Source: Pseudidiomarina indica (GTDB lineage Bacteria; Pseudomonadota; Gammaproteobacteria; Enterobacterales; Alteromonadaceae). From it: a stretch of 64,000 bases of DNA. How positions within the stretch are numbered: position 1 is the stretch's first letter; each line of letters begins with the position of its first letter. Location of the stretch: assembly GCA_029279945.1 (NCBI GenBank), contig JAJUHK010000006.1, positions 1 through 64,000 on the forward strand, in the 5' to 3' direction. The notes beneath the pieces are model-generated. The model searched no databases. It was not told where the DNA came from and was given only the letters and a program-made list of their open reading frames with translations. Shown here in pieces: positions 13,731-51,540 of the stretch. The position numbers and the translations under genes are program-made.

Positions 13731-15551
13731 TTGTCCGAATCTTCACTGTCTAAAGTTCTTGCCGAAGTGTTTGGCTATACCACATTTCGCGATGGCCAAT
13801 TATTGGTCATTGAGGCAGTGATGCAGCAGCGCGATGCACTCGTTCTGATGCCAACTGGGGGCGGTAAATCGCTGTGCTACCAATTGCCTGCAGTGATGGG
13901 TGATGGCCTTACCGTTGTTATCTCACCTTTAATCAGTCTGATGCAAGATCAAGTTGAAGCTTTGCAAGCGATGGGGGTTGCTGCTGCGGCACTCAACAAC
14001 GGGTTGAGCCCCGAGGCGAGCCAACGGATCATGACCCAGTTGCATCAAAATCAAATACGGTTGCTGTATGTGAGCCCCGAACGGGCATTGCAACCATACT
14101 TTATGCGTCAGTTACAGCAGTGGCCGATACGACTCATCGCGATTGATGAAGCGCATTGTATTTCACAGTGGGGGCACGATTTCCGACCAGAGTATGGCCA
14201 GCTTGGAGTGTTGCGTGAGGCCTTACCCAAAGTGCCATTTATGGCGCTAACTGCAACTGCTGATGCGGCCACTGAAGGGGATATTATTTCCCGCTTACAT
14301 CTGCATGATCCTGTCGTTTATAAAGGGTCGTTTGACCGCCCCAATATCCGTTATGTGGTGGAAGAAAAATACAAGCCCTTCAAGCAGGTGACAGATTATA
14401 TCAAAAAACAACGTGGCGCGTCGGGTATCGTCTACTGTGGTAGTCGGAAAAAGGTAGAGGAACTGGCTGAAAAACTAAAACGGGAAGGGATTCGTGCTGC
14501 CGGATACCATGCTGGTATGGATCATGAGATTCGTGAGGATATTCTCCGCCAGTTTGTCCGCGATGACCTTGATGTGGTCGTTGCGACTGTTGCGTTTGGC
14601 ATGGGCATCAACAAACCCAACGTACGTTTTGTGGTCCATTTTGACGTGCCTCGGAGTGTCGAAGGGTACTATCAGGAAACTGGGCGAGCTGGCCGCGATG
14701 GCCTCGCGGCTGAAGCGGTACTGCTGTATGACCCAGGTGATGCCGCGTGGATCAAATCCATAATTTATGAGCAACCTGATGAAGAACGGCGCCGCATCGA
14801 ATTACATAAATTCGCTGCCATGCAAGCTTTAGGCGAAGCGCAAACCTGTCGCCGGTTGGTGCTGCTGAATTACTTTAATGAACATCGCACTCAGGCCTGT
14901 GGTAACTGTGATATATGTTTGGATCCACCCCGTCAGTATGATGGCACGGTCGATGCGCAGAAAGTTCTGTCATGCATTTATCGTGTGGGGCAGCGCTACG
15001 GTGTCAATCATGTGATCGATGTGCTGCGGGGGAGTAAATCACACCGTTTAGTTGAATTAGGGCACGATAAGCTATCGACCTATGGCATTGGCGCCGCTCA
15101 CAGCCATGAATATTGGTTAGCGGTAGTGCGTCAACTTATTCACCGCGGCTATGTTGTTCAGAATATGCAGCAATACGGTGTACTGCAATTAACAGAAGCT
15201 GCGCGTCCCATTCTGCGTGGAGAAATTACTCTACAATTAGCTGAGCCTCGGGTTACCTTGACGGCAGTGTCTAAGTCGCGGGTCGTTGATCGCGAAGATT
15301 ACGATAAAGTATTGTTCCGGCGCTTACGGAAATTGCGAAAAGCCATTGCAGATGAGGAAGAAGTACCGCCATACGTGGTGTTTAATGATAACAGCTTGGT
15401 GGAGATGGCGATGTATTGTCCCATCGATGAAGCTGCCTTTTTAGAAATCACCGGGGTTGGTCAAAAGAAACTCGAACGCTACGGGCAAGAGTTCATTGCT
15501 GCAATCACTGCGTACCTTGATGGTGAGAATGAGCCCCTGCTAAATTTCTAA
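13731..15551 (+). CDS. recQ: ATP-dependent DNA helicase RecQ
   Basis: 606 residues from a TTG start preceded by GGAGA with 7-base spacing. The frame is open to 13608, but the extra 41 residues have no RecQ counterpart, and E. coli RecQ (609) matches this start. Seen: 'FGYTTFRDGQ' motif 0, Walker A 'MPTGGGKSLCYQLPA', DEAH box 'IDEAHCISQWGHDFRPEY', motif VI 'QETGRAGRDG', the zinc cysteines (C..ACGNCDIC), a winged-helix RQC region, and a C-terminal HRDC domain (VPPYVVFNDNSLVEMA...). It acts in recombination and fork repair (RecF pathway). Confidence 0.95.
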   Translation: MSESSLSKVLAEVFGYTTFRDGQLLVIEAVMQQRDALVLMPTGGGKSLCYQLPAVMGDGLTVVISPLISLMQDQVEALQAMGVAAAALNNGLSPEASQRIMTQLHQNQIRLLYVSPERALQPYFMRQLQQWPIRLIAIDEAHCISQWGHDFRPEYGQLGVLREALPKVPFMALTATADAATEGDIISRLHLHDPVVYKGSFDRPNIRYVVEEKYKPFKQVTDYIKKQRGASGIVYCGSRKKVEELAEKLKREGIRAAGYHAGMDHEIREDILRQFVRDDLDVVVATVAFGMGINKPNVRFVVHFDVPRSVEGYYQETGRAGRDGLAAEAVLLYDPGDAAWIKSIIYEQPDEERRRIELHKFAAMQALGEAQTCRRLVLLNYFNEHRTQACGNCDICLDPPRQYDGTVDAQKVLSCIYRVGQRYGVNHVIDVLRGSKSHRLVELGHDKLSTYGIGAAHSHEYWLAVVRQLIHRGYVVQNMQQYGVLQLTEAARPILRGEITLQLAEPRVTLTAVSKSRVVDREDYDKVLFRRLRKLRKAIADEEEVPPYVVFNDNSLVEMAMYCPIDEAAFLEITGVGQKKLERYGQEFIAAITAYLDGENEPLLNF

Positions 15552-42954: not shown

Positions 42955-42978
42955 GCGCCTTCTGTGAAGGAGCTTTTT

Positions 42979-43536
42979 GTGGATGCATTCTTAACTTCGA
43001 CAGTCACCGTTGCTATTGCAGAGATCGGTGATAAAACACAACTTCTTAGCCTACTATTAGCCGCACGTTATCACCATAAGTGGTCCATCATCGCCGGAAT
43101 TTTTTGCGCTACCTTGTTGAACCATTTCGCCTCAGCGTGGTTTGGTCAATGGATAATGACGGTGATTCCAGCACATATTGGGACTTATATTGTTGCCGGC
43201 TGCTTTATCCTTGTGGGGATGTGGGCGTTATTCCCCGATAAACTTGAGGACCATGGTACTTCCGCAGTAGGTAAGTACGGGGCGTTTATGGCTGCCTTGA
43301 TATTATTCTTTGTAGCCGAAATTGGCGACAAAACACAGGTTGCTACCGTAGTCCTTGCCGCCCAGTACAATAACGTGATTGCGGTGACCTTAGGTACAAC
43401 GTTAGGAATGATGCTAGCAAACGTTCCGGTCGTGCTGCTGGGGGAGCGTATCATGAAAGTGTTCCCATTATCATGGGCGCGCTATGCAGCTGCGATGATA
43501 TTTATTACCCTCGGGGTACTGGCACTCATCACGTAA
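42979..43536 (+). CDS. GDT1/TMEM165 (UPF0016) family cation exporter
   Basis: 185 residues from a GTG start with AAGGAG six bases upstream. The frame extends 15 bases further. Six membrane helices in two repeats, each with the E-x-G-D-K-T signature: 'IAEIGDKTQLLSLLLAARY' and 'VAEIGDKTQVATVVLAAQY'. Bacterial members (MneA type) export Mn2+, while eukaryotic ones move Ca2+/Mn2+. A 5'-truncated paralogue lies at 44668. The DsbA-like gene follows 12 bases after the stop. Confidence 0.92.
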   Translation: MDAFLTSTVTVAIAEIGDKTQLLSLLLAARYHHKWSIIAGIFCATLLNHFASAWFGQWIMTVIPAHIGTYIVAGCFILVGMWALFPDKLEDHGTSAVGKYGAFMAALILFFVAEIGDKTQVATVVLAAQYNNVIAVTLGTTLGMMLANVPVVLLGERIMKVFPLSWARYAAAMIFITLGVLALIT

Positions 43537-43548
43537 GGAATGAAGTAA

Positions 43549-44289
43549 ATGATTAGCAGGTTAATGAGTGGGCTCTTGATCGTGATGGCGTTATGGAATG
43601 CCCCTTTATTTGGTCAAGACAAAGCCGATTATCAAACCGAGTTGGAGGAATTGAATCAGCTCTTGGAAGAATATCCAGCTTTGATCCCTAATGTGCTGTC
43701 GAGTGTGAAAGAGTTCTTCCGCCAGCGTAATGAACATCTCGCACTTATGCAAAAACATGAAGGTTGGCTGTTCAACAATGACCGCACTCATCCTTGGTAT
43801 GGTGCCGAGAATGGCTCCTTACCTGTCGTGGTGATCACCGATTACGACTGCCCTTATTGCAAACGTTTAGAGCCCCATTTGCAACGCTTGGTGGCAGAGT
43901 TCCCGCAAGTGAAAGTCATTAACGTGATGGTTCCGATTCGGCAACAAAATGTTCAAGGCGGGCGTCTGAACCCAGCCAATTTCGCGTTAAACGTGTGGCA
44001 GAACCAACCGAATCAATTTGCGGACGTCCATCGATTACTGTATGAGCAAAATGGCCTACATACGGCACAATCACTGGAGAAAATTGCTCGCCAGACCGGC
44101 ACCCGGTCACAGCTCACCAGTGCCCGTGCAACCGCTTCGGTGATCGAACAGAATCATCGGGTGTTTAGTGATTTTCAACTCCGTGGTACCCCTGCAATCA
44201 TCATGGGACCACTGATTATTCCTGGCTATGTTGATTATGACGACCTCAAAGCGGCCGTCACGAATTTGCTGGCCAACCAAACGCCTTAA
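43549..44289 (+). CDS. DsbA-family periplasmic thiol oxidoreductase (ScsC-like paralogue 1)
   Basis: 246 residues. A signal peptide (MISRLMSGLLIVMALWN..., cleavage near residue 22) and an N-terminal helical stretch (about 28-68) typical of ScsC/DsbA trimerisation stalks precede the thioredoxin fold. The active site is 'TDYDCPYCKRLEPHL' (CPYC), and the cis-Pro loop is 'LRGTPAIIMG'. About 60 percent of visible positions match the gene at 48695, including 'DYDCPYCKRLEPHLQ' and 'LNPANFALNVWQNQ'. It sits just outside the Tn7-like left end, with no DsbD-like partner of its own. Confidence 0.88.
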   Translation: MISRLMSGLLIVMALWNAPLFGQDKADYQTELEELNQLLEEYPALIPNVLSSVKEFFRQRNEHLALMQKHEGWLFNNDRTHPWYGAENGSLPVVVITDYDCPYCKRLEPHLQRLVAEFPQVKVINVMVPIRQQNVQGGRLNPANFALNVWQNQPNQFADVHRLLYEQNGLHTAQSLEKIARQTGTRSQLTSARATASVIEQNHRVFSDFQLRGTPAIIMGPLIIPGYVDYDDLKAAVTNLLANQTP

Positions 44290-44333
44290 TTATGCAATGT
44301 GGGGAAATTGCTTTATCGAAGTCACAACCTACA

Positions 44334-44395
44334 TGTGAACTAACAATAAAGTTAGTACACTAAACCCGGAATTAACAATAAAGTTTGTACACTAA
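44334..44395 (+). repeat. Tn7-like left end: terminus plus two TnsB-type sites
   Basis: The terminus TGTGAACT is followed by two 22-base repeats at 44342-44363 and 44374-44395. Both start AACAATAAAGTT and end GTACACTAA, differ at one base and are 10 bases apart. Confidence 0.85.
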
Positions 44396-44457
44396 TTGCG
44401 GGGCTAATTTTACGAAAATCTACAATCACATTGAAATTTATGGTGTTTTCGTGATTG

Positions 44458-44664
44458 TCAGGTCACGCTATCAATAAAGTCTTTATGACATTTTTTTCGA
44501 AAATCAGCGGTATTGAACTCGGTTGGGCAAAACAAATCAAAGTATGTGACAAAGTATTTTTTGTCTTTTCGTAAATCTCCAGTCCAGTTTATTTCCGTGG
44601 TAGTTCTCTTTAACACATAGGAAAACAGTCGATCATTTAGGAGCTTGACCAAATTCTCGCACAC
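44458..44664 (-). CDS. Unrecognised AT-rich ORF fragment next to the left end
   Basis: 68 residues with a GTG start, beginning 'CENLVKLLNDRLFSYVLKRTTT' and ending 'FRKKCHKDFIDSVT'. I cannot place it. It ends just inside the left repeats and its 5' end is at the junction with the truncated gdt1 copy (about 44667), so it may be the C-terminal piece of a larger lost gene. Its Lys/Phe-rich codons and low GC differ from the neighbours, pointing to foreign origin. The remaining 44396-44457 shows no gene. Confidence 0.35.
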   Translation of the reverse strand: MCENLVKLLNDRLFSYVLKRTTTEINWTGDLRKDKKYFVTYFDLFCPTEFNTADFRKKCHKDFIDSVT

Positions 44665-44667
44665 AGA

Positions 44668-44969
44668 GCCTATTTCCTGATAACGACGAGCATGATGAAG
44701 TGCGCAAGTACGGCGCTTTCATTGCCACCACCGTCTTGTTCTTTATTGCTGAAATTGGTGACAAAACACAGGTGGCCACCATTGTGCTTGGTGCGCAGTA
44801 CACCAGTGTTGTTGCAGTAACTTTAGGTACCACGCTTGGCATGATGGTCGCAAACGTGCCGGTGGTGTTACTCGGTGGTAAGTTAATGCAAAAGTTACCG
44901 CTCGATTTGGCTCGTTATATCGCCTCGGCGGTGTTTATCATACTGGGTGTTGTCGCGTTGCTTTGGTAA
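44668..44969 (+). pseudogene. 5'-truncated GDT1-family exporter copy
   Basis: Translation in the frame of the TAA at 44967-44969 gives homology to gdt1 from 'LFPDNDEHDEVRKYGAF' onward. It includes the second 'IAEIGDKTQVATIVLGAQY' repeat and the normal C-terminus ('YIASAVFIILGVVALLW'). The first repeat (about 90 residues with its EIGDKT motif) is absent, and sequence before 44668 is unrelated. Half a pore is unlikely to work alone. It is a paralogue, not an exact copy, of the gene at 42979. Confidence 0.85.
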
Positions 44970-45082
44970 GGAACGTTTGGCAAAACGTGGGCAATGGTAA
45001 AAAACTTAGCGATGATCACAAAATTGCACAGAAAGTAATCTATAGTTGATCGCACATACACGAAGCCAAGTGGAGATGTGCG

Positions 45083-45625
45083 ATGCCCCGTCTTGAAGAT
45101 AAAGTTGCCATTATTACCGGCGGTGCCGCAGGCATTGGTCTTGCTACCGTTCATGAACAAACCACCGAGCACTTCGATCGGGTGATGGCCGTGAACGTGC
45201 GTGGCGTTTTCCTTGGCATGAAGTATGCGTTGCCGCACATGTTAAAAGCGAAATCAGGTAGTATTATCAATATGTCGTCTGTTGCTGGCTTGGATGGCTT
45301 TGGCAATCTGAGCCCCTATGTGGCGTCAAAGCATGCGGTGGTTGGTCTAACTAAGTCGGCGGCACTCGAGGCCGCGTCATCTGGTGTACGTGTGAATTCG
45401 GTGCATCCATCGCCGATTCATACGCGCATAATGCGAGCGATTGAGGAGAGTATGAATCCTAGCCACGCTAAAGAAGTGCAAAGTCAATTTGAACAAAATA
45501 TTCCAATGCAGCATTATGGTGAGCCGATAGACGTTGCGAACTTAGTGTTATTTTTGGTGTCTGATGACAGTAGTTTTATTACGGGTTGCCAATATCGCGT
45601 CGACGGCGGCATGGGCGCCAGTTGA
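45083..45625 (+). pseudogene. Short-chain dehydrogenase with a large internal in-frame deletion
   Basis: 180 residues where about 250 are expected. It starts normally ('LEDKVAIITGGAAGIGLAT', TGxxxGIG motif), then at about residue 22-23 (near 45149) jumps to 'VHEQTTEHFDRVMAVNVRGVFLGMKYALPHM', which lies about 65-70 residues further on in classical SDRs. The NNAG motif is missing. The catalytic Ser ('NMSSVAG'), YxxxK ('SPYVASKHAV') and C-terminus are present. The cofactor pocket should be broken. The frame is kept, so a residual protein may be made. Confidence 0.75.
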
Positions 45626-45669
45626 AAAGCAAGAGCGATATTAGCTTTTAGATATTAGTAACGAGGGTT

Positions 45670-46044
45670 ATGTTGAGATTTGGTGCTGACAAAAAACGAG
45701 CTTACACCGCCTTAATGGCGGTATTTTGCGTGCTGTTTTTATGTTGGGGCCAACAAAGTAGCTGGGTAACAGCAAGCTGTCCGCAATCGCAGCACCATAA
45801 CCAAGCAAGCACGACTAGTGCTGGTGATATCGATAACACGGTTGTGGTGGCTGAATGCGATAGTTCGTCGCAGTTATTGCAGCAAGCGCACCTGAATATT
45901 TTAGATGGTGGCGCCGCCGTATCGTTGTTTGTCGGCATCACTTTACTAATTATTATCCGTCACTTCTTTGTTGGTTATGCGCAGGCGCCGCCCAGCTATC
46001 GGCGACGTCGTCCCCACCTTCTATTTTGTGTATTCAATGAATAA
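45670..46044 (+). CDS. Small membrane protein preceding scsB
   Basis: 124 residues, family not recognised. A hydrophobic N-terminus (about 12-34, 'YTALMAVFCVLFLCWGQQSSW') is followed by a loop with Cys and His-His (CPQSQHHN) and a second Cys. A second membrane helix (about 77-99, 'GGAAVSLFVGITLLIIIRHFF') and an Arg-rich tail complete it. By position and size it may play the part of ScsA in Scs loci, but I see no clear sequence match. Metal binding by the loop is a guess. Confidence 0.55.
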   Translation: MLRFGADKKRAYTALMAVFCVLFLCWGQQSSWVTASCPQSQHHNQASTTSAGDIDNTVVVAECDSSSQLLQQAHLNILDGGAAVSLFVGITLLIIIRHFFVGYAQAPPSYRRRRPHLLFCVFNE

Positions 46045-46119
46045 CACAGAAGCCTATTAACTCTGTGTGCACATAGTTGATATGTGCGATAAGTATTACT
46101 GAATACATGAGATAACTTT

Positions 46120-48192
46120 ATGAAGAACATTTCAAAAATCTGGTTGGCTGCGATGCTGCTGTGGCTGCTAAGTGCAAGCGCCCAAGCCCAAGTTGCGACG
46201 GACTGGATTCAACTTGAAGAGCACCCACCGGTTCAGGTGCGATTGCTGGTGCCGGGGAAAACTGACCCTGAACAGCGGCAAGTTTCAGCCTTGTTGCAGG
46301 TCAAGCTTGCTGATAATTGGAAAACCTATTGGCGAACGCCCGGTGAAGGTGGTGTACCGCCGCAACTGGCATGGCAAGCTGATTCTACTAATATCACTGA
46401 TGTTTCTTGGCGCTTTCCAGTACCTGAGCGTTTTGACGTACAAGGTATTGAAACGGTGGGTTACCAAGGTGATATCAATTTCCCGCTGCAAATTAGTGTG
46501 GCAGATTGGCAACAGCCCGTTCGCTTAGAAGGGCTACTGACCTTAGCCAGCTGTACCAATATCTGCGTGATTTCCGACTTTCCACTCGCTCTTAACTTCA
46601 CCCCAAGTGAGTTGAATGCGGACATGGATGCGCTATTTGCCTATGAGCAAGCGCAAAGTGCGTTGCCACATCGTGACCACCCGCAACTGACTGTGTCTGA
46701 CTTGGTTTGGTCGGCGTCACAGCAGCAGTTAGCCGTAACGGTAACGAATACTGAGCAATGGCAGCAGCCACGTATTTTCGTAGATAGTCTGCGTGAGGAT
46801 TATGCCGACCTCACCATTGAGTTATTAGAGCAGCAGCAACAAGGCAATGAGTTGACCGCTCGGTTTGCAATTTCGCATTGGTTGGAACAGCCAGAGTTAG
46901 CTGGCGAGACACTTCAGGTGACCATAGCGGATGAACTAATTCGTGCAGAAATGAGCGCTCAAGCTATTGCTGGTAACGTGCAGCCATCAACAGTATCCGC
47001 AAGCTGGTGGATGATACTGCCGCTGGCGTTACTTGGCGGCCTTATTCTCAACATTATGCCATGCGTACTGCCAGTACTTGGCTTAAAGCTGCAATCGGTG
47101 ATTGTTGCCGAGCGCGAGCGTGGTCAGGTACGTCGTCAATTTATTGCTTCAGCACTTGGCATCATCACCTCGTTCGTCATTCTGGCGATCATGCTGATGC
47201 TATTGAAGCTCGGTGGACATGCCATTGGTTGGGGTATTCAGTTCCAGAACCCGTATTTTATCGGGGGCATGGCGCTGGTGATTGGCCTCTTTGCTCTCTC
47301 AGTGAGTGGCTTATGGACGATTCAACTACCGCACGGCATGCAGCAGTGGGTAGCAACCCGTGGCGATCAATCAACGCTGGGTCATTTCATTCAAGGCATG
47401 TTTGCGACTTTGCTAGCAACGCCTTGTACCGCGCCGTTCTTAGGAACAGCCGTCGCTTTTGCCCTAGCGGCATCGAACCTTCAGTTACTGCTTATTTTTG
47501 TGGCGTTAGGTGTCGGTATGGCATTGCCTTGGCTGGCCGTTGCTATATGGCCTAGTGTGGCGATGAAACTCCCGAAACCCGGGCCATGGTTAAAATGGGT
47601 CAACCGGATTTTCGCGTTGTTATTGTTGCTTACCACGGCGTGGTTGATTAGTTTGCTCAGTAACCATGTCAGCGCTGACGTATTCGCATTCATTGTTGCC
47701 GCATTTGTTTTATTGGCGCTGGTATTAGCCTACCGTCGGTTTGGGCGAGCGGGCGTGATTGGTGCTATTGCGGGCACAGTGCTGCTAAGTGGCATCGGCT
47801 TGCTAGTAGGTAGTTGGACAAGTAGTCCGAAACAGCTTGAAGAACATGCTTGGCAGCAACTACAACCAAGCGTCATTGCCAGTGCCGTTGCGCAAGGCAA
47901 AGTGGTGTTTGTAGATGTTACTGCGGATTGGTGTGTGACCTGTAAAGCTAATAAAATTGGTGTGTTGTTGCAAGAGCCGGTGGCAAGCGCCTTGCGCGCT
48001 GATGATATCGTGCTTATGCAGGGGGATTGGACGCGGCCAAGTGACCAAATCACCGACTATTTGCGTAGCTACAACCGTTATGGCGTTCCATTTAATCAGG
48101 TTTATGGACCCGGTGCGCCGAATGGCATTGCGTTACCCGTGATACTGACGGATGACGCGGTACTTGAAGCAATCAAGCAGGCACGTCAATGA
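46120..48192 (+). CDS. scsB: ScsB/DsbD-family membrane thiol-disulfide reductase
   Basis: 690 residues. Signal peptide (to about 23). A long periplasmic domain (about 24-285) has the pair 'ASCTNICVI'. A DsbD-type membrane domain (about 295-565) has 'NIMPCVLPVLG' and 'LATPCTAPFLG' supplying the reactive cysteines. The C-terminal thioredoxin-like domain has 'TADWCVTCKAN'. The large N-terminal domain marks ScsB rather than DsbD. It carries electrons from cytoplasmic thioredoxin to periplasmic partners, here ScsD and ScsC. Overlap with scsD is ATGA. Confidence 0.9.
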   Translation: MKNISKIWLAAMLLWLLSASAQAQVATDWIQLEEHPPVQVRLLVPGKTDPEQRQVSALLQVKLADNWKTYWRTPGEGGVPPQLAWQADSTNITDVSWRFPVPERFDVQGIETVGYQGDINFPLQISVADWQQPVRLEGLLTLASCTNICVISDFPLALNFTPSELNADMDALFAYEQAQSALPHRDHPQLTVSDLVWSASQQQLAVTVTNTEQWQQPRIFVDSLREDYADLTIELLEQQQQGNELTARFAISHWLEQPELAGETLQVTIADELIRAEMSAQAIAGNVQPSTVSASWWMILPLALLGGLILNIMPCVLPVLGLKLQSVIVAERERGQVRRQFIASALGIITSFVILAIMLMLLKLGGHAIGWGIQFQNPYFIGGMALVIGLFALSVSGLWTIQLPHGMQQWVATRGDQSTLGHFIQGMFATLLATPCTAPFLGTAVAFALAASNLQLLLIFVALGVGMALPWLAVAIWPSVAMKLPKPGPWLKWVNRIFALLLLLTTAWLISLLSNHVSADVFAFIVAAFVLLALVLAYRRFGRAGVIGAIAGTVLLSGIGLLVGSWTSSPKQLEEHAWQQLQPSVIASAVAQGKVVFVDVTADWCVTCKANKIGVLLQEPVASALRADDIVLMQGDWTRPSDQITDYLRSYNRYGVPFNQVYGPGAPNGIALPVILTDDAVLEAIKQARQ

Positions 48193-48698
48193 AATTCTTA
48201 AAGCAATTAGCCATTTACCTCGCTATTTTTATTGCCATTAGTTTCGCGGTGGATAGCTGGCGCAGTCGTGGTTTGCCATCAGGCCCAATTGATGCACTGT
48301 CGGTGGTTACTATCGACTCGCAACAGCATGATGTTCTTGCGCACAGTCATGAACAACCCGTCCTATTGTACTTTTGGGCAACCTGGTGCCCGATATGTGA
48401 TTGGGTTTCGCCATCCATTAATTGGCTTGCCGATGATCATGAAGTGATGAGTATCGCGATTCGTTCTGGCAACGATGCCCGGGTAACAAGCTACTTGCAG
48501 CACCACGATTATCGATTTGCGACCGTCAATGATAATACGGGTGAATTAGCACGTCGTTGGCAAATCAACGCGACTCCAACGGTCGTGATTGTTGCCGACG
48601 GCGAGATTGTTTCGTATACCACCGGCGCATCAACGCCGGTTGGTTTATGGTTGCGTCTGAAGTGGGCGCAATTGATGCAAAAATTGGAGAAGTTATGA
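48189..48698 (+). CDS. scsD: ScsD, membrane-anchored TlpA-like thioredoxin
   Basis: 169 residues. One N-terminal membrane anchor (about 5-20, 'LAIYLAIFIAISFAVDSW') precedes a periplasmic thioredoxin fold with active site 'YFWATWCPICDWVSP' (WCPIC) and cis-Pro 'NATPTVVIVADG'. ScsD proteins take reducing power from ScsB in copper-stress redox systems. It overlaps scsB and scsC by four bases each, so the three form a translationally coupled unit. Confidence 0.88.
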   Translation: MKFLKQLAIYLAIFIAISFAVDSWRSRGLPSGPIDALSVVTIDSQQHDVLAHSHEQPVLLYFWATWCPICDWVSPSINWLADDHEVMSIAIRSGNDARVTSYLQHHDYRFATVNDNTGELARRWQINATPTVVIVADGEIVSYTTGASTPVGLWLRLKWAQLMQKLEKL

Positions 48699-49423
48699 AG
48701 TACCTTTTAAGCACAGTAGTTTCGTTATTGTTTGTTGTTAGCGTGGCAGCGAGCGCGCAACAAGCGGCAAATCAACCCCAGCGACTTGAGCAAATTAACG
48801 AATTGCTGAAGCAAAACCCAGAAGTTATTCCGAGCGTGTTAAATAGCTTGCAGCAATACATTGCAAGCAAAAAAACTGCCGAGCAAGCGCAGCGTGATCA
48901 TGGTAAGTGGTTACTTGATAACGATGATGCGCACCCGTGGTTTGGGGCTGAAAACGGCTCTGTTCCGGTTATTGTCTTTACAGATTATGACTGCCCATAT
49001 TGCAAACGTTTAGAGCCTCATTTGCAAAAACTAGTGGAAGAGTTTCCACAAGTGAAAGTGATTAATGTGTTGGTACCGTTGCGTCAGCAGAGTGTACAGG
49101 GGGGCAACTTGAACCCAGCAAACTTTGCCTTGAATGTATGGCAGAATCAGCGTGAGCAGTTTGCTGAAGTGCATGAACTACTCTATAAAAAGAACGGTCT
49201 GCATACCGGTAAATCGCTCGAACAAATTGCGCGTAAAACCGGAACCCGCTCGCAATTAGATAGCCCGAAGGCGACGCCAACCATTATTGAGCGTAACTAT
49301 CGGGTATTCTCTGATTTTCAATTGCGTGGAACGCCGGCAATTATGGTTGGCGGACAAACCATTCCAGGTTACGTTGAATATGCTGAGTTGAAACAAGTTG
49401 TTCAACAAGCCGTCGCGCATTAA
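48695..49423 (+). CDS. scsC: ScsC/DsbA-family periplasmic thiol oxidoreductase (paralogue 2)
   Basis: 242 residues from the ATG overlapping the scsD stop. The frame extends to 48557 inside scsD, but GGAGA supports this start. Signal peptide MKYLLSTVVSLLFVVSVAASAQ. An N-terminal helical stalk (about 28-65) comes before the thioredoxin fold. The active site is 'TDYDCPYCKRLEPHL' and the cis-Pro loop 'LRGTPAIMVGGQTIPGYVEY'. Close paralogue of the gene at 43549, with its DsbD-type partner in the same operon, unlike the outer copy. Confidence 0.9.
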   Translation: MKYLLSTVVSLLFVVSVAASAQQAANQPQRLEQINELLKQNPEVIPSVLNSLQQYIASKKTAEQAQRDHGKWLLDNDDAHPWFGAENGSVPVIVFTDYDCPYCKRLEPHLQKLVEEFPQVKVINVLVPLRQQSVQGGNLNPANFALNVWQNQREQFAEVHELLYKKNGLHTGKSLEQIARKTGTRSQLDSPKATPTIIERNYRVFSDFQLRGTPAIMVGGQTIPGYVEYAELKQVVQQAVAH

Positions 49424-49465
49424 TGTGAAGTAATCAATGTTACAGAAACTCGCAATAGTTCTACT

Positions 49466-49494
49466 GGCGCCCTTGCTGATATGGCAAGGGCGCC
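49466..49494 (+). terminator. Strong hairpin after scsC
   Basis: GGCGCCCTTGC (49466-49476) and GCAAGGGCGCC (49484-49494) make a perfect 11-bp stem with a 7-base loop, 43 bases after the scsC stop. Only a weak AAGTTATA follows, so termination may be inefficient or need another factor. Confidence 0.5.
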
Positions 49495-49589
49495 AAGTTA
49501 TAGGCACACGCCATTCGAGAAATCTAAGCTTAAAGCGACACATGTCTGGTATACTTGCGCCTCGCTTTCCGATTAAGAAGAACCCCACC

Positions 49590-49832
49590 ATGCCAAATAC
49601 AGCACCAGCCACCCAACAATTCTCAGACGTTGGCCTTAACAATGAGCTTTTAAAAAGCTTAAAGGAGGCGGGCTATCAGCAGATGACGCCGGTTCAAGCC
49701 ATGAGCTTACCGTTGGTATTACGCGGTGATGATGTGGTGGTGCAGGCACAAACGGGCTCTGGCAAAACCGCCGTATTTGCTTTGGGGATACTTGCCAAAC
49801 TGTACACACTTTATTGTTATTTTGTGTGTTAG
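49590..49832 (+). pseudogene. dbpA: DEAD-box RNA helicase (DbpA-like) truncated by the Tn7-like right end
   Basis: The first about 70 residues match DEAD-box helicases: Q motif 'GYQQMTPVQAMSLP' and Walker A 'AQTGSGKTAVFALGILAKL'. At about 49797-49800 the frame runs into the transposon repeat and reads 'YTLYCYFVC' to a TAG stop. All later motifs (DEAD, SAT, helicase C) are missing. The TPVQA pattern suggests DbpA rather than RhlE. No remainder of the gene is in the window. Confidence 0.9.
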
Positions 49833-49858
49833 TGCACAAACTTTATTGTCAGTTTACA
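49797..49858 (-). repeat. Tn7-like right end: terminus plus two TnsB-type sites
   Basis: Minus strand, from the tip: TGTAAACT (49858-49851), a repeat at 49850-49829 (GACAATAAAG...GCACTAA) and a second, weaker repeat at 49818-49797 (AACAATAAAG...). They are inverted relative to the left-end repeats. The tip is 4 bases from the yhiN stop codon. Confidence 0.85.
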
Positions 49859-49862
49859 GTAG

Positions 49863-51053
49863 CTAAAGGCTTTGCCCGCAGGCCCAGCCACTGGACCATG
49901 CCCATTGGAAGTTGTAGCCACCTAACCAGCCAGTGACATCGAGCACTTCGCCAATAAAATAGAGCCCAGGCTGGCGGGTGCTGGCCATGGTTTTGGAGTT
50001 TACTTCACGTGTATCGACGCCGCCTAAGGTAACTTCGGCGGTGCGATAACCTTCCGTACCATTAGGTTTAATCGTCCAGTTGGTCAAGGTATCAGCGATT
50101 TGCTGTAACAAGGCATTGCTACAATCAGCGAGATTTTTATCAGGCCATTGATAGTGCTCAGCTAATGCTAGGGCGAGACGCTTTGGCAGCCATTCTTGTA
50201 CAGCTGTTCGCAAGCCCAGTCGCGGTCGCTGTTGGCGTAGGTCGATGAGTGTATCGAACACTGCGTGGTGTGGGAGTAAGTTAATCTGAATGGTTTCACC
50301 GGGGTGCCAGAAAGACGAAATCTGCAACATAGCAGGTCCAGATAAGCCACGATGAGTAAACAACATGGCTTCCTTGAACTGACAGCGTTGGTTGGTTGCA
50401 ATGACATCAACAGCAAGCCCTGATAATTCAGCGAACTGTTGTTTATCACTATCATGCAAGGTGAACGGGACTAAGCCGGCGCGAACTGGCACGATGTGAT
50501 GCCCAAATTGTTCTGCCAATTGGTACCCAAATGGCGTGGCGCCTAACTTTGGCATGGACAATCCACCGCAGGCAACAACTAATTGCTCAGCCCGAAGGGT
50601 ACCCTGGTCAGTCGTTAACAGATAACCATCACGACCATAGTCGACGGTGGAGATTTGCGTGCGTAGCTGAATGCGGGCACCAGCTTGGCGGCATTCTGTC
50701 AGCAGCATGGTAACGATGTCTTTGGCGCTATGATCACAAAACAGTTGCCCCAAGGTTTTTTCGTGGTAGGCAATCCCGTGTCGAGTGACCATGTCAATAA
50801 AATCCCACTGGGTGAAGCGGCTTAACGCCGATTTACAGAAGTGCGGATTGTCGGACAGATAGTTTTCAGGGCCAGCGTATAAATTGGTGAAGTTGCAGCG
50901 TCCCCCACCGGAAATAAGAATTTTTTTGCCGGCCTGCTTGGCGTGATCAACAACTAATACCCGTCGACCGCGCTGCGCGGCAATGGCAGCACAAAGAAGG
51001 CCGGCAGCGCCGGCCCCTATAATAATCACATCATGAGATTCAGTCTGCGCCAC
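49863..51053 (-). CDS. yhiN: YhiN/HI0933-family NAD(P)/FAD-dependent oxidoreductase
   Basis: 396 residues from a GTG start with AAGGG upstream. The ATG at 51077 lies in the last codons of the peroxiredoxin gene and is less likely. Rossmann FAD motif 'VIIIGAGAAGLLCAAIAAQRG', then 'ISGGGRCNFTN', 'VVACGGLSMPKLGATPFGYQLAEQFGH' and the C-terminal 'FIGEVLDVTGWLGGYNFQWAWSSGWACG', all HI0933-type signatures. The function is poorly defined. Its 3' end is the landing point of the Tn7-like right end. Confidence 0.9.
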   Translation of the reverse strand: MAQTESHDVIIIGAGAAGLLCAAIAAQRGRRVLVVDHAKQAGKKILISGGGRCNFTNLYAGPENYLSDNPHFCKSALSRFTQWDFIDMVTRHGIAYHEKTLGQLFCDHSAKDIVTMLLTECRQAGARIQLRTQISTVDYGRDGYLLTTDQGTLRAEQLVVACGGLSMPKLGATPFGYQLAEQFGHHIVPVRAGLVPFTLHDSDKQQFAELSGLAVDVIATNQRCQFKEAMLFTHRGLSGPAMLQISSFWHPGETIQINLLPHHAVFDTLIDLRQQRPRLGLRTAVQEWLPKRLALALAEHYQWPDKNLADCSNALLQQIADTLTNWTIKPNGTEGYRTAEVTLGGVDTREVNSKTMASTRQPGLYFIGEVLDVTGWLGGYNFQWAWSSGWACGQSL

Positions 51054-51057
51054 AGAG

Positions 51058-51540
51058 TTACCCTTGTAATGCTTCAAGCACGTGTTCGGCGCTGCTTACT
51101 CCGTAGGTTTTTTCACCTTCAACAAATAAGTGGGTGATGACACCATCCTTAATGACCATTGCGTAGCGCTCTGCACGGATACCGCCAAATGTCCCTGTTG
51201 CTTTGGTTAAGCCGAGTGTTTGGTGATATGAGGCATCGCCATCGGATAGAAACTGTACGATTTGGTCTGGATCTTGCGCTTTACTCCATGCACGCATGAC
51301 GAAGGCATCATTCACGGCAACGCAAGCAATGGTTTGCACGCCTAATTTACGCAGTTCATCGGCATGTTTAATAAAGCTCGGTAAATGCTGTTCTGAGCAT
51401 GTTGGGGTAAATGCACCCGGTACCGCGAACATCACGTGGGTACCTTGGGCAAACAACTCAGCTGGATTGATGTGCTGTAAGCCGACGTCACCTAACGTGG
51501 TGAGGGTGCCAGCAGGCAAGTTATCGTTAACTTTAATCAT
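51058..51540 (-). CDS. Atypical Prx5-type peroxiredoxin
   Basis: 160 residues from the ATG after GGAG. Nine extra codons upstream are not supported. The peroxidatic Cys is in 'VPGAFTPTCSEQHLPSFI', with 'VNDAFVMRAWSK' and 'GIRAERYAMVIKDGVI' as further Prx5/AhpC-TSA marks. It reduces hydroperoxides using glutathione, glutaredoxin or thioredoxin. No fused glutaredoxin domain. It sits between rsmJ and yhiN on the same strand, 4 bases from each. Confidence 0.93.
   Translation of the reverse strand: MIKVNDNLPAGTLTTLGDVGLQHINPAELFAQGTHVMFAVPGAFTPTCSEQHLPSFIKHADELRKLGVQTIACVAVNDAFVMRAWSKAQDPDQIVQFLSDGDASYHQTLGLTKATGTFGGIRAERYAMVIKDGVITHLFVEGEKTYGVSSAEHVLEALQG

Follow-up and report, generated by a model that had tools for sequence, protein, structure and literature searches.

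Tn7-like transposon ends enclosing a native yhiN-adjacent gene cluster in a Pseudidiomarina genome

The ends of Tn7 carry a TGT tip and inverted repeats with a GACAATAAAGT core, and Tn7-like transposition yields a target duplication of five bases. Judged by such ends, the end logic of Tn7 (glmS) recurs at positions 44334 to 49858 of the window, the whole 64,000-nucleotide stretch analyzed here (contig JAJUHK010000006.1, assembly GCA_029279945.1), although the target gene and the tns content differ. The gene at this site is yhiN, which Table 1 of PMC11406308 gives as the target of Tn6230. Like Tn6230 and other yhiN-targeting Tn7-like elements, the segment has an insertion at the 3' end of yhiN, a right end (R) by yhiN, Tn7-type tips, and ACAATAAAGT repeats, the likeness to Tn6230 being one of target gene as listed in that table and not of Tn6230 ends. 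Unlike the yhiN-targeting elements of relatives that carry tnsABCD, it has no tns genes, an interior of chromosomal DNA adjacent to the attachment site, and no target duplication. The kind of element is known, its state here is unusual and informative, and we consider it likely that yhiN-site Tn7-like insertions were reshaped by recombination between species into a tns-less look-alike enclosing a native gene cluster. No paper on the locus itself was found among open-licence PubMed Central (PMC) papers.

The two ends are genuine Tn7-like ends and not the product of chance. The left tip, TGTGAACT at 44334, is answered by TGTAAACT, read inward from 49858, and re-reading of the sequence returned the same coordinates and tips as an earlier sequence-only reading of this DNA. 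A 30-mer made of tip and first repeat (TGTRAACTRACAATAAAGTTWGTRCACTAA, at most 3 mismatches) occurs twice in the window, at 44334-44363 on the forward strand and at 49829-49858 on the reverse strand, and in none of 100 shuffles of the window; the pattern was derived from the two ends themselves, which makes this a post hoc test, with a large margin. This count agrees with the negligible chance that the sequence-only reading had assigned to matched inverted ends 5.5 kb apart. The 10-base core alone is weak evidence, with 11 sites observed against 5.15 expected at up to 1 mismatch and 4 of 100 shuffles scoring as high, and the evidence for the ends is carried by the ordered array of tip, repeat, and repeat. 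On the left, the two repeats start 32 bp apart and differ at one base, as had been claimed, and a weaker third site, TCAATAAAGT, stands at 44471. On the right, two inverted repeats are also 32 bp apart, and the inner one (49797-49817) is off consensus at 4 of 21 bases, so that the earlier description of matched 22-base repeats, two per end, holds for the left end and slightly overstates the right. Inverted ends with a TGT tip and TnsB-type repeat arrays, as expected of the Tn7-like, yhiN-targeting kind, are therefore present. They are what Tn7-like transposition has left at the 3' end of yhiN, a site selected by a protein of the TnsD/TniQ class. The right end (49801-49858) matches that of an element in Idiomarina loihiensis SN11 (L051:14677-14734). 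With up to 2 mismatches, no further copies of the 21-base repeat were found in the window genome beyond the two ends, and one isolated copy appeared once 3 mismatches were allowed. The left ends of the Pseudidiomarina indica genome used for comparison and of I. loihiensis (L034, L035) are of a one-repeat form, while the window left end has two repeats 32 bp apart; a spacing of 32 to 33 bp is also seen in loci L025, L038, L039, L043, and L044.

No tns-type genes were seen between these ends in open reading frames (ORFs) or family scans, in agreement with the earlier statement that the segment holds no TnsA, TnsB, TnsC, TnsD, or TniQ. None of the core tnsA, tnsB, and tnsC genes, and no TniQ-family gene, lies inside as it does in the yhiN-targeting Tn7-like kind. 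The whole window genome (estimated 99.96% complete, 28 contigs) gave no match to TniQ (PF06527), TnsA-N (PF08722), or the Shewanella TnsB or TnsC proteins, in searches that find all four in G026, a genome of the same genus. PF09299 was silent in the window genome as well, but this profile misses the TnsB of the yhiN-site elements in G026 and in Shewanella PS-2 (L037), and TnsB and TnsC were for that reason searched with the proteins themselves. P. indica (the comparison uses locus L052; genome G299 is treated as the same genome, the yhiN coordinates agreeing) likewise has no TniQ, TnsA, TnsB, or TnsC match. On this gene content, the segment is expected to stay in place as long as no TnsABC set is supplied in trans.

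Candidate helpers and vehicles were examined and rejected. The Tn7-like TnsA, TnsB, and TnsC proteins of the sister-species genome G303 are only about 26 to 33% identical to yhiN-type proteins, and the G303 stretches examined showed no ends of the matching type. That genome holds a tnsABC set (C186, L141) and a second TnsA and TnsB-like pair (C107, L142), both of other Tn7-like subtypes. A plasmid search in near mode with the whole segment returned one 67-bp TMEM165 match only, and a distant-mode search with the left end returned only 53-base end-repeat matches in three Enterobacter plasmid records. For a viral vehicle, there were no exact matches to the repeat, and none in viral contigs to the exact junction of left end (L) and TMEM165.

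Of special interest is the origin of the DNA between the ends. The block from 44676 to 49800 matches a native locus of relatives with the order TMEM165-SDR-scsA-dsbD-trx-dsbA-rhlE. Gene order was examined in 25 relatives, P. indica and I. loihiensis among them, and six have the native cluster beside yhiN: G070 and G170 with rhlE, whose matching start lies between dsbA and yhiN, and G131, G305, G220, and G204, where rhlE was not detected. Some of the other stretches are short (L080, L087, and L089), so absence of the cluster there says little. I. loihiensis has the native cluster order without the SDR gene, lying outside its element. No Tn7-like ends were found around the native cluster of the six relatives in the stretches scanned; the same gene order without ends, which the sequence-only reading had named as an observation that would speak against a transposon if it held in all relatives, was thus found in part.

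The interior shares gene order and 81 to 90% nucleotide identity with the native G070 locus, or with G303 for its first part. Identity to G070 is 81.2% over 44676-45149, 85.4% over 45150-49499, and 83.6% over 49499-49802, and identity to G303 is 89.9% over 44676-46719, the G303 contig ending inside dsbD so that the later part of its cluster lies outside the comparison. Adjoining DNA outside the block is 70 to 73% identical to the same sister species. Tn7-like ends were not found around the G070 locus; relative to it, the window copy has lost sequence at both edges and carries two internal deletions. Both edges are cut within genes, with TMEM165 lacking its 5' part and rhlE its 3' part; each is fused to transposon DNA, rhlE after 70 codons to the innermost right repeat. 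To judge from these identities, the interior is a chromosomal cluster native to the yhiN neighborhood, from a sister species close to G303 and G070.

The bases flanking the two ends indicate how they came to face each other. With its tip at 49858 and the yhiN stop codon at 49863-49865, the R end sits at the 3' end of yhiN, as it does in I. loihiensis, Shewanella PS-2, and others. The CTA in the left flank is the complement of the yhiN stop codon. Reading both flanks gave CTACA on the left and GTAGC on the right, and as the sequence-only reading had noted, they form no five-base target duplication. In P. indica, CACAACCTACA precedes the left tip, and the identical 11 bases stand directly before AGC at its yhiN end. 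Among the 25 relatives, yhiN ends in CTACA in two (P. indica and G070), while the window's own yhiN ends in CTAAA, which suggests that the left junction was most likely formed in a yhiN allele other than the window's own. The telling part of CACAACCTACA is ACCTACA, because its first four bases, CACA, are also present in the interior at that junction point. L and R would then probably stem from different insertion or recombination events, the likely cause of the missing target duplication.

Taken with the interior, the flanks bear on the view of the sequence-only reading that the segment is a non-autonomous or decayed member of the family. A single Tn7-like element, inserted once and stripped of its tns genes by internal deletion, would account for the ends, the yhiN target, and a truncated cargo ORF inside the left end. 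It would not account for an interior drawn from the chromosome, which resembles the cluster of sister species and is native beside yhiN in relatives, nor for L and R flanks that fit different yhiN alleles, and it is very improbable. Of the earlier view, Tn7-like ends without tns genes stand, and the whole segment as one decayed element does not.

A comparison with P. indica points to exchange between species. P. indica shares the left end, the L/TMEM165 junction, and the interior with the window. The right end was not found in P. indica, where the right junction has CACA in common with the interior and then continues like an empty site. In 200-base steps, identity between the two is 65 to 86% in the flanks and mostly 99 to 100% from about 43390 to 49542, which argues that the block moved between species. 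There is 1 change in the 551 bases of 43390-43940, the left end differs by five single-base changes and the loss of a 32-bp repeat, and 44680-49542 is about 99 to 100% identical. The same comparison makes an assembly chimera of two loci extremely improbable: although the window genome is a draft of 28 contigs and the junction of truncated rhlE with R was seen only in the window, the L/TMEM165 junction and interior recur in P. indica, a separate assembly, and the arrangement of R and yhiN resembles that of I. loihiensis.

A genuine non-autonomous mini-Tn7-like transposon could also have carried the block. It would have captured a yhiN-adjacent segment of the sister species and then, with help in trans, transposed as a unit into the yhiN gene of one or more species, with later recombination overwriting the left flank in the window and removing the right end in P. 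indica. Tips that are both complete and correctly inverted, CTACA on both sides of the block in P. indica, an interior nearly identical in two species, and a right end abutting the window's own yhiN would all follow. However, the window has no matching target duplication, and searches for TnsA, TniQ, TnsB, and TnsC found no match in either host genome. Among 26 genomes of the genus, the L/TMEM165 fusion occurs at no second site and is present only in the window and P. indica, at the same locus. A more slender point is that the P. indica right junction keeps the AC of the pre-insertion site beyond CTACA, which is unexpected after a simple deletion of the R end. On balance we regard such a transposon as unlikely.

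The preferred history, illegitimate and homologous recombination between species acting on insertions at the yhiN hotspot, draws on several things read from the sequence: the identity of the ends, the yhiN site, the native interior, the broken genes at both inner junctions, a left flank that fits another yhiN allele, and a genome in which no matching TnsA, TnsB, TnsC, or TniQ was found. A yhiN-targeting Tn7-like element would have inserted in a P. indica-type genome, leaving the left end and its CTACA. Another insertion, into the yhiN of the window lineage itself, would have left R and GTAGC. Sister-species DNA would have been joined illegitimately to the left end, before or after the window-lineage insertion; the junction itself is in the sequence, and the partner event is reconstructed from it. 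The block of dsbA1, L, and interior could then have spread by homologous recombination through TMEM165 and dsbA1, as the mosaic of identities suggests; that mosaic indicates an exchange between species that was recent and took place in patches.

Several observations weigh against this history. A 334-bp patch of dsbA1 (43941-44274) has 28 differences from P. indica, whereas the stretches on either side of it are nearly identical, a pattern that requires more than one exchange. Only 7 of the 11 left-flank bases carry the argument for a P. indica yhiN, CACA being in the interior too. The junction of truncated rhlE with R is known from one genome only. A crossover exactly at the R tip could also yield GTAGC, so the right flank is no proof of a separate insertion. 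In its first two 75-base bins, the yhiN beside R is closest to P. indica and not donor-like; only some of the later bins (50166-50315 and 50826) favor G070. With P. indica-like sequence next to R and few later bins leaning to G070, arrival of a donor yhiN tract together with R was weakened as a candidate.

Similar ends accompanied by transposition genes, which the sequence-only reading had proposed to look for, were found in relatives: in Shewanella PS-2 (L037), the yhiN-proximal end is accompanied by tnsA, tnsB, and tnsC and by a tnsD of which only the start falls within the locus, and tnsABCD lies beside the end in Photobacterium malacitanum (L046), with no yhiN within the stretch examined. 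When species genomes were searched for exact copies of the 21-base repeat, 17 stretches were returned. With up to 2 mismatches, 21 of 295 genomes of the same family had the repeat, the window's included, and the reversed control matched 15 of 295, so that single repeats in the list of 21 genomes mean little by themselves. Of 43 loci outside the window (L004-L046, many of them only 3 kb long), five have yhiN no more than tens of bases away from the repeat (L008, L009, L013, L014, and L037). Within the genus, tnsABCD stands at yhiN in G026, where the R end is more diverged, and G302 has a diverged R end at yhiN. Pfam families match the TnsA, TnsC, and TnsD of G026 but not its TnsB, which takes its name from gene order and from 40% identity to the L037 protein, itself named by gene order. 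At E 0.01, no Pfam family, not even Mu-transpos_C, matches the TnsB-position proteins of two yhiN-site elements (L087:6189-8297 and L037:2046-4178), and family scans can therefore miss these elements.

The I. loihiensis SN11 element (L051:7910-14734) is a close comparison for the ends. Between dsbA and yhiN it has an L end, tnsA, tniQ, and an R end. It resembles the window in its left 311 bp (99.7% identity between window 44369-44679 and L051:7913-8223), its closely similar R end, and its site after dsbA. It differs in having tnsA, tniQ, an IS3-type insertion sequence (IS) element, other cargo, TTTAGA on both sides, and one left repeat. No tnsB or tnsC match was seen in it, and the IS3-type element lies beside tnsA, as if the IS had removed tnsB and tnsC. 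Its cargo includes a peroxidase-domain protein (PF00141; L051:9132-10154).

Table 1. Features from the left flank to yhiN, with window coordinates
Feature	Positions	Strand	Remarks
Resident TMEM165/GDT1 gene, left flank	42964..43536	+	Pfam GDT1; 82.6% amino acid identity to P. indica
Resident dsbA-like gene dsbA1, last before left end	43549..44289	+	Pfam DSBA/Thioredoxin_4
Left flank CACAACCTACA	44323..44333		Fits yhiN-proximal target of P. indica-type allele
Tn7-like left end	44334..44395	+	Tip TGTGAACT; repeats 44342-44363 and 44374-44395; weaker third site 44471
Inner left end and last ~73 codons of truncated cargo ORF (from about 44458)	44396..44679	-	
Illegitimate junction, cargo ORF/TMEM165	44676..44679		4 common bases, CCTG
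Second TMEM165 gene, 5'-truncated	44680..44969	+	89.9% nucleotide identity to G303 over 44676-46719
SDR gene	45083..45625	+	In-frame 228-bp internal deletion relative to G070
Small ORF at position called scsA	45670..46044	+	Kept in native loci of relatives
dsbD/ScsB-type gene, intact	46120..48192	+	Pfam DsbD_N, DsbD_TM, Thioredoxin_7
Thioredoxin-like gene, intact	48189..48698	+	Family match
dsbA2, intact	48695..49423	+	
Deletion scar between dsbA2 and rhlE (595 bp, relative to G070)	49499		Window 49499 joins G070 14907 to 15503
DEAD-box helicase (rhlE-like) fragment, first 70 codons	49590..49799	+	Pfam DEAD; cut by right end
Tn7-like right end	49801..49858	-	Outer repeat 49829-49849; inner repeat from 49817 to fusion point; tip 49858
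Right flank GTAGC	49859..49863		Joins the window's own yhiN stop (49863-49865)
yhiN/HI0933-family flavoprotein gene, attachment-site gene	49863..51077	-	Pfam HI0933_like, TIGR00275

The remaining features (Table 1) include the cargo ORF truncated in the window, which is intact in I. loihiensis (L051:8002-8724) and of which residues 168 to 240 match in P. indica. The intact ORF has no family match in Pfam, PADLOC, or NCBIfam, and an initial HEPN-like identification, unsupported by these same sources, was withdrawn. Where the truncated ORF meets TMEM165, I. loihiensis reads ...TTTCCTGGATTG, G303 reads ...AAACCTGATAACG, and the window reads ...TTTCCTGATAACG. The 228-bp deletion in the SDR gene is apparently common to G303, whose alignment runs across it unbroken and has 21 gap letters over its 2051 columns. 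The small ORF that follows has no family match in Pfam, PADLOC, or NCBIfam, and scsA is a label of position; ScsB-type, as applied to dsbD, is our own label.

The interior dsbD is the only full-length match in the window genome, the other match being partial and 29% identical. Its product is 94% identical in amino acids to that of G070 and 100% identical to that of P. indica. Relative to G070, the rate of nonsynonymous change (dN) in dsbD is 0.032 and that of synonymous change (dS) is 0.87 (Nei-Gojobori count), and dN is far below dS in the SDR, scsA-position, dsbD, trx, and dsbA2 genes by the same count. These low ratios are consistent with constraint, mostly reflecting time before capture. 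The present role of the segment is most likely to supply thiol-redox genes (DsbD/ScsB-type, Trx, and DsbA) missing from the resident TMEM165-dsbA1 locus.

Section 2.9 of PMC11406308 considers it likely that Tn7-like cargo capture mechanisms remain to be discovered. Benler et al. (PMC8649781) name homologous recombination among proposed routes of cargo capture and note that its share was left unaddressed. One tentative possibility from this locus is that recombination at attachment sites lets Tn7-like elements capture cargo from the chromosome by enclosing host genes adjacent to the target, giving a tns-less unit with mobilizable ends. If true, this would differ from the capture routes driven by IS elements and integrons. 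The locus also carries a warning that a matched pair of ends is not enough to define a transposon: to judge by the flanks, a single insertion need not have produced both L and R. Together with its sister-species relatives and the partner genome, it suggests that recombination at a common attachment site can place chromosomal genes between transposon ends.

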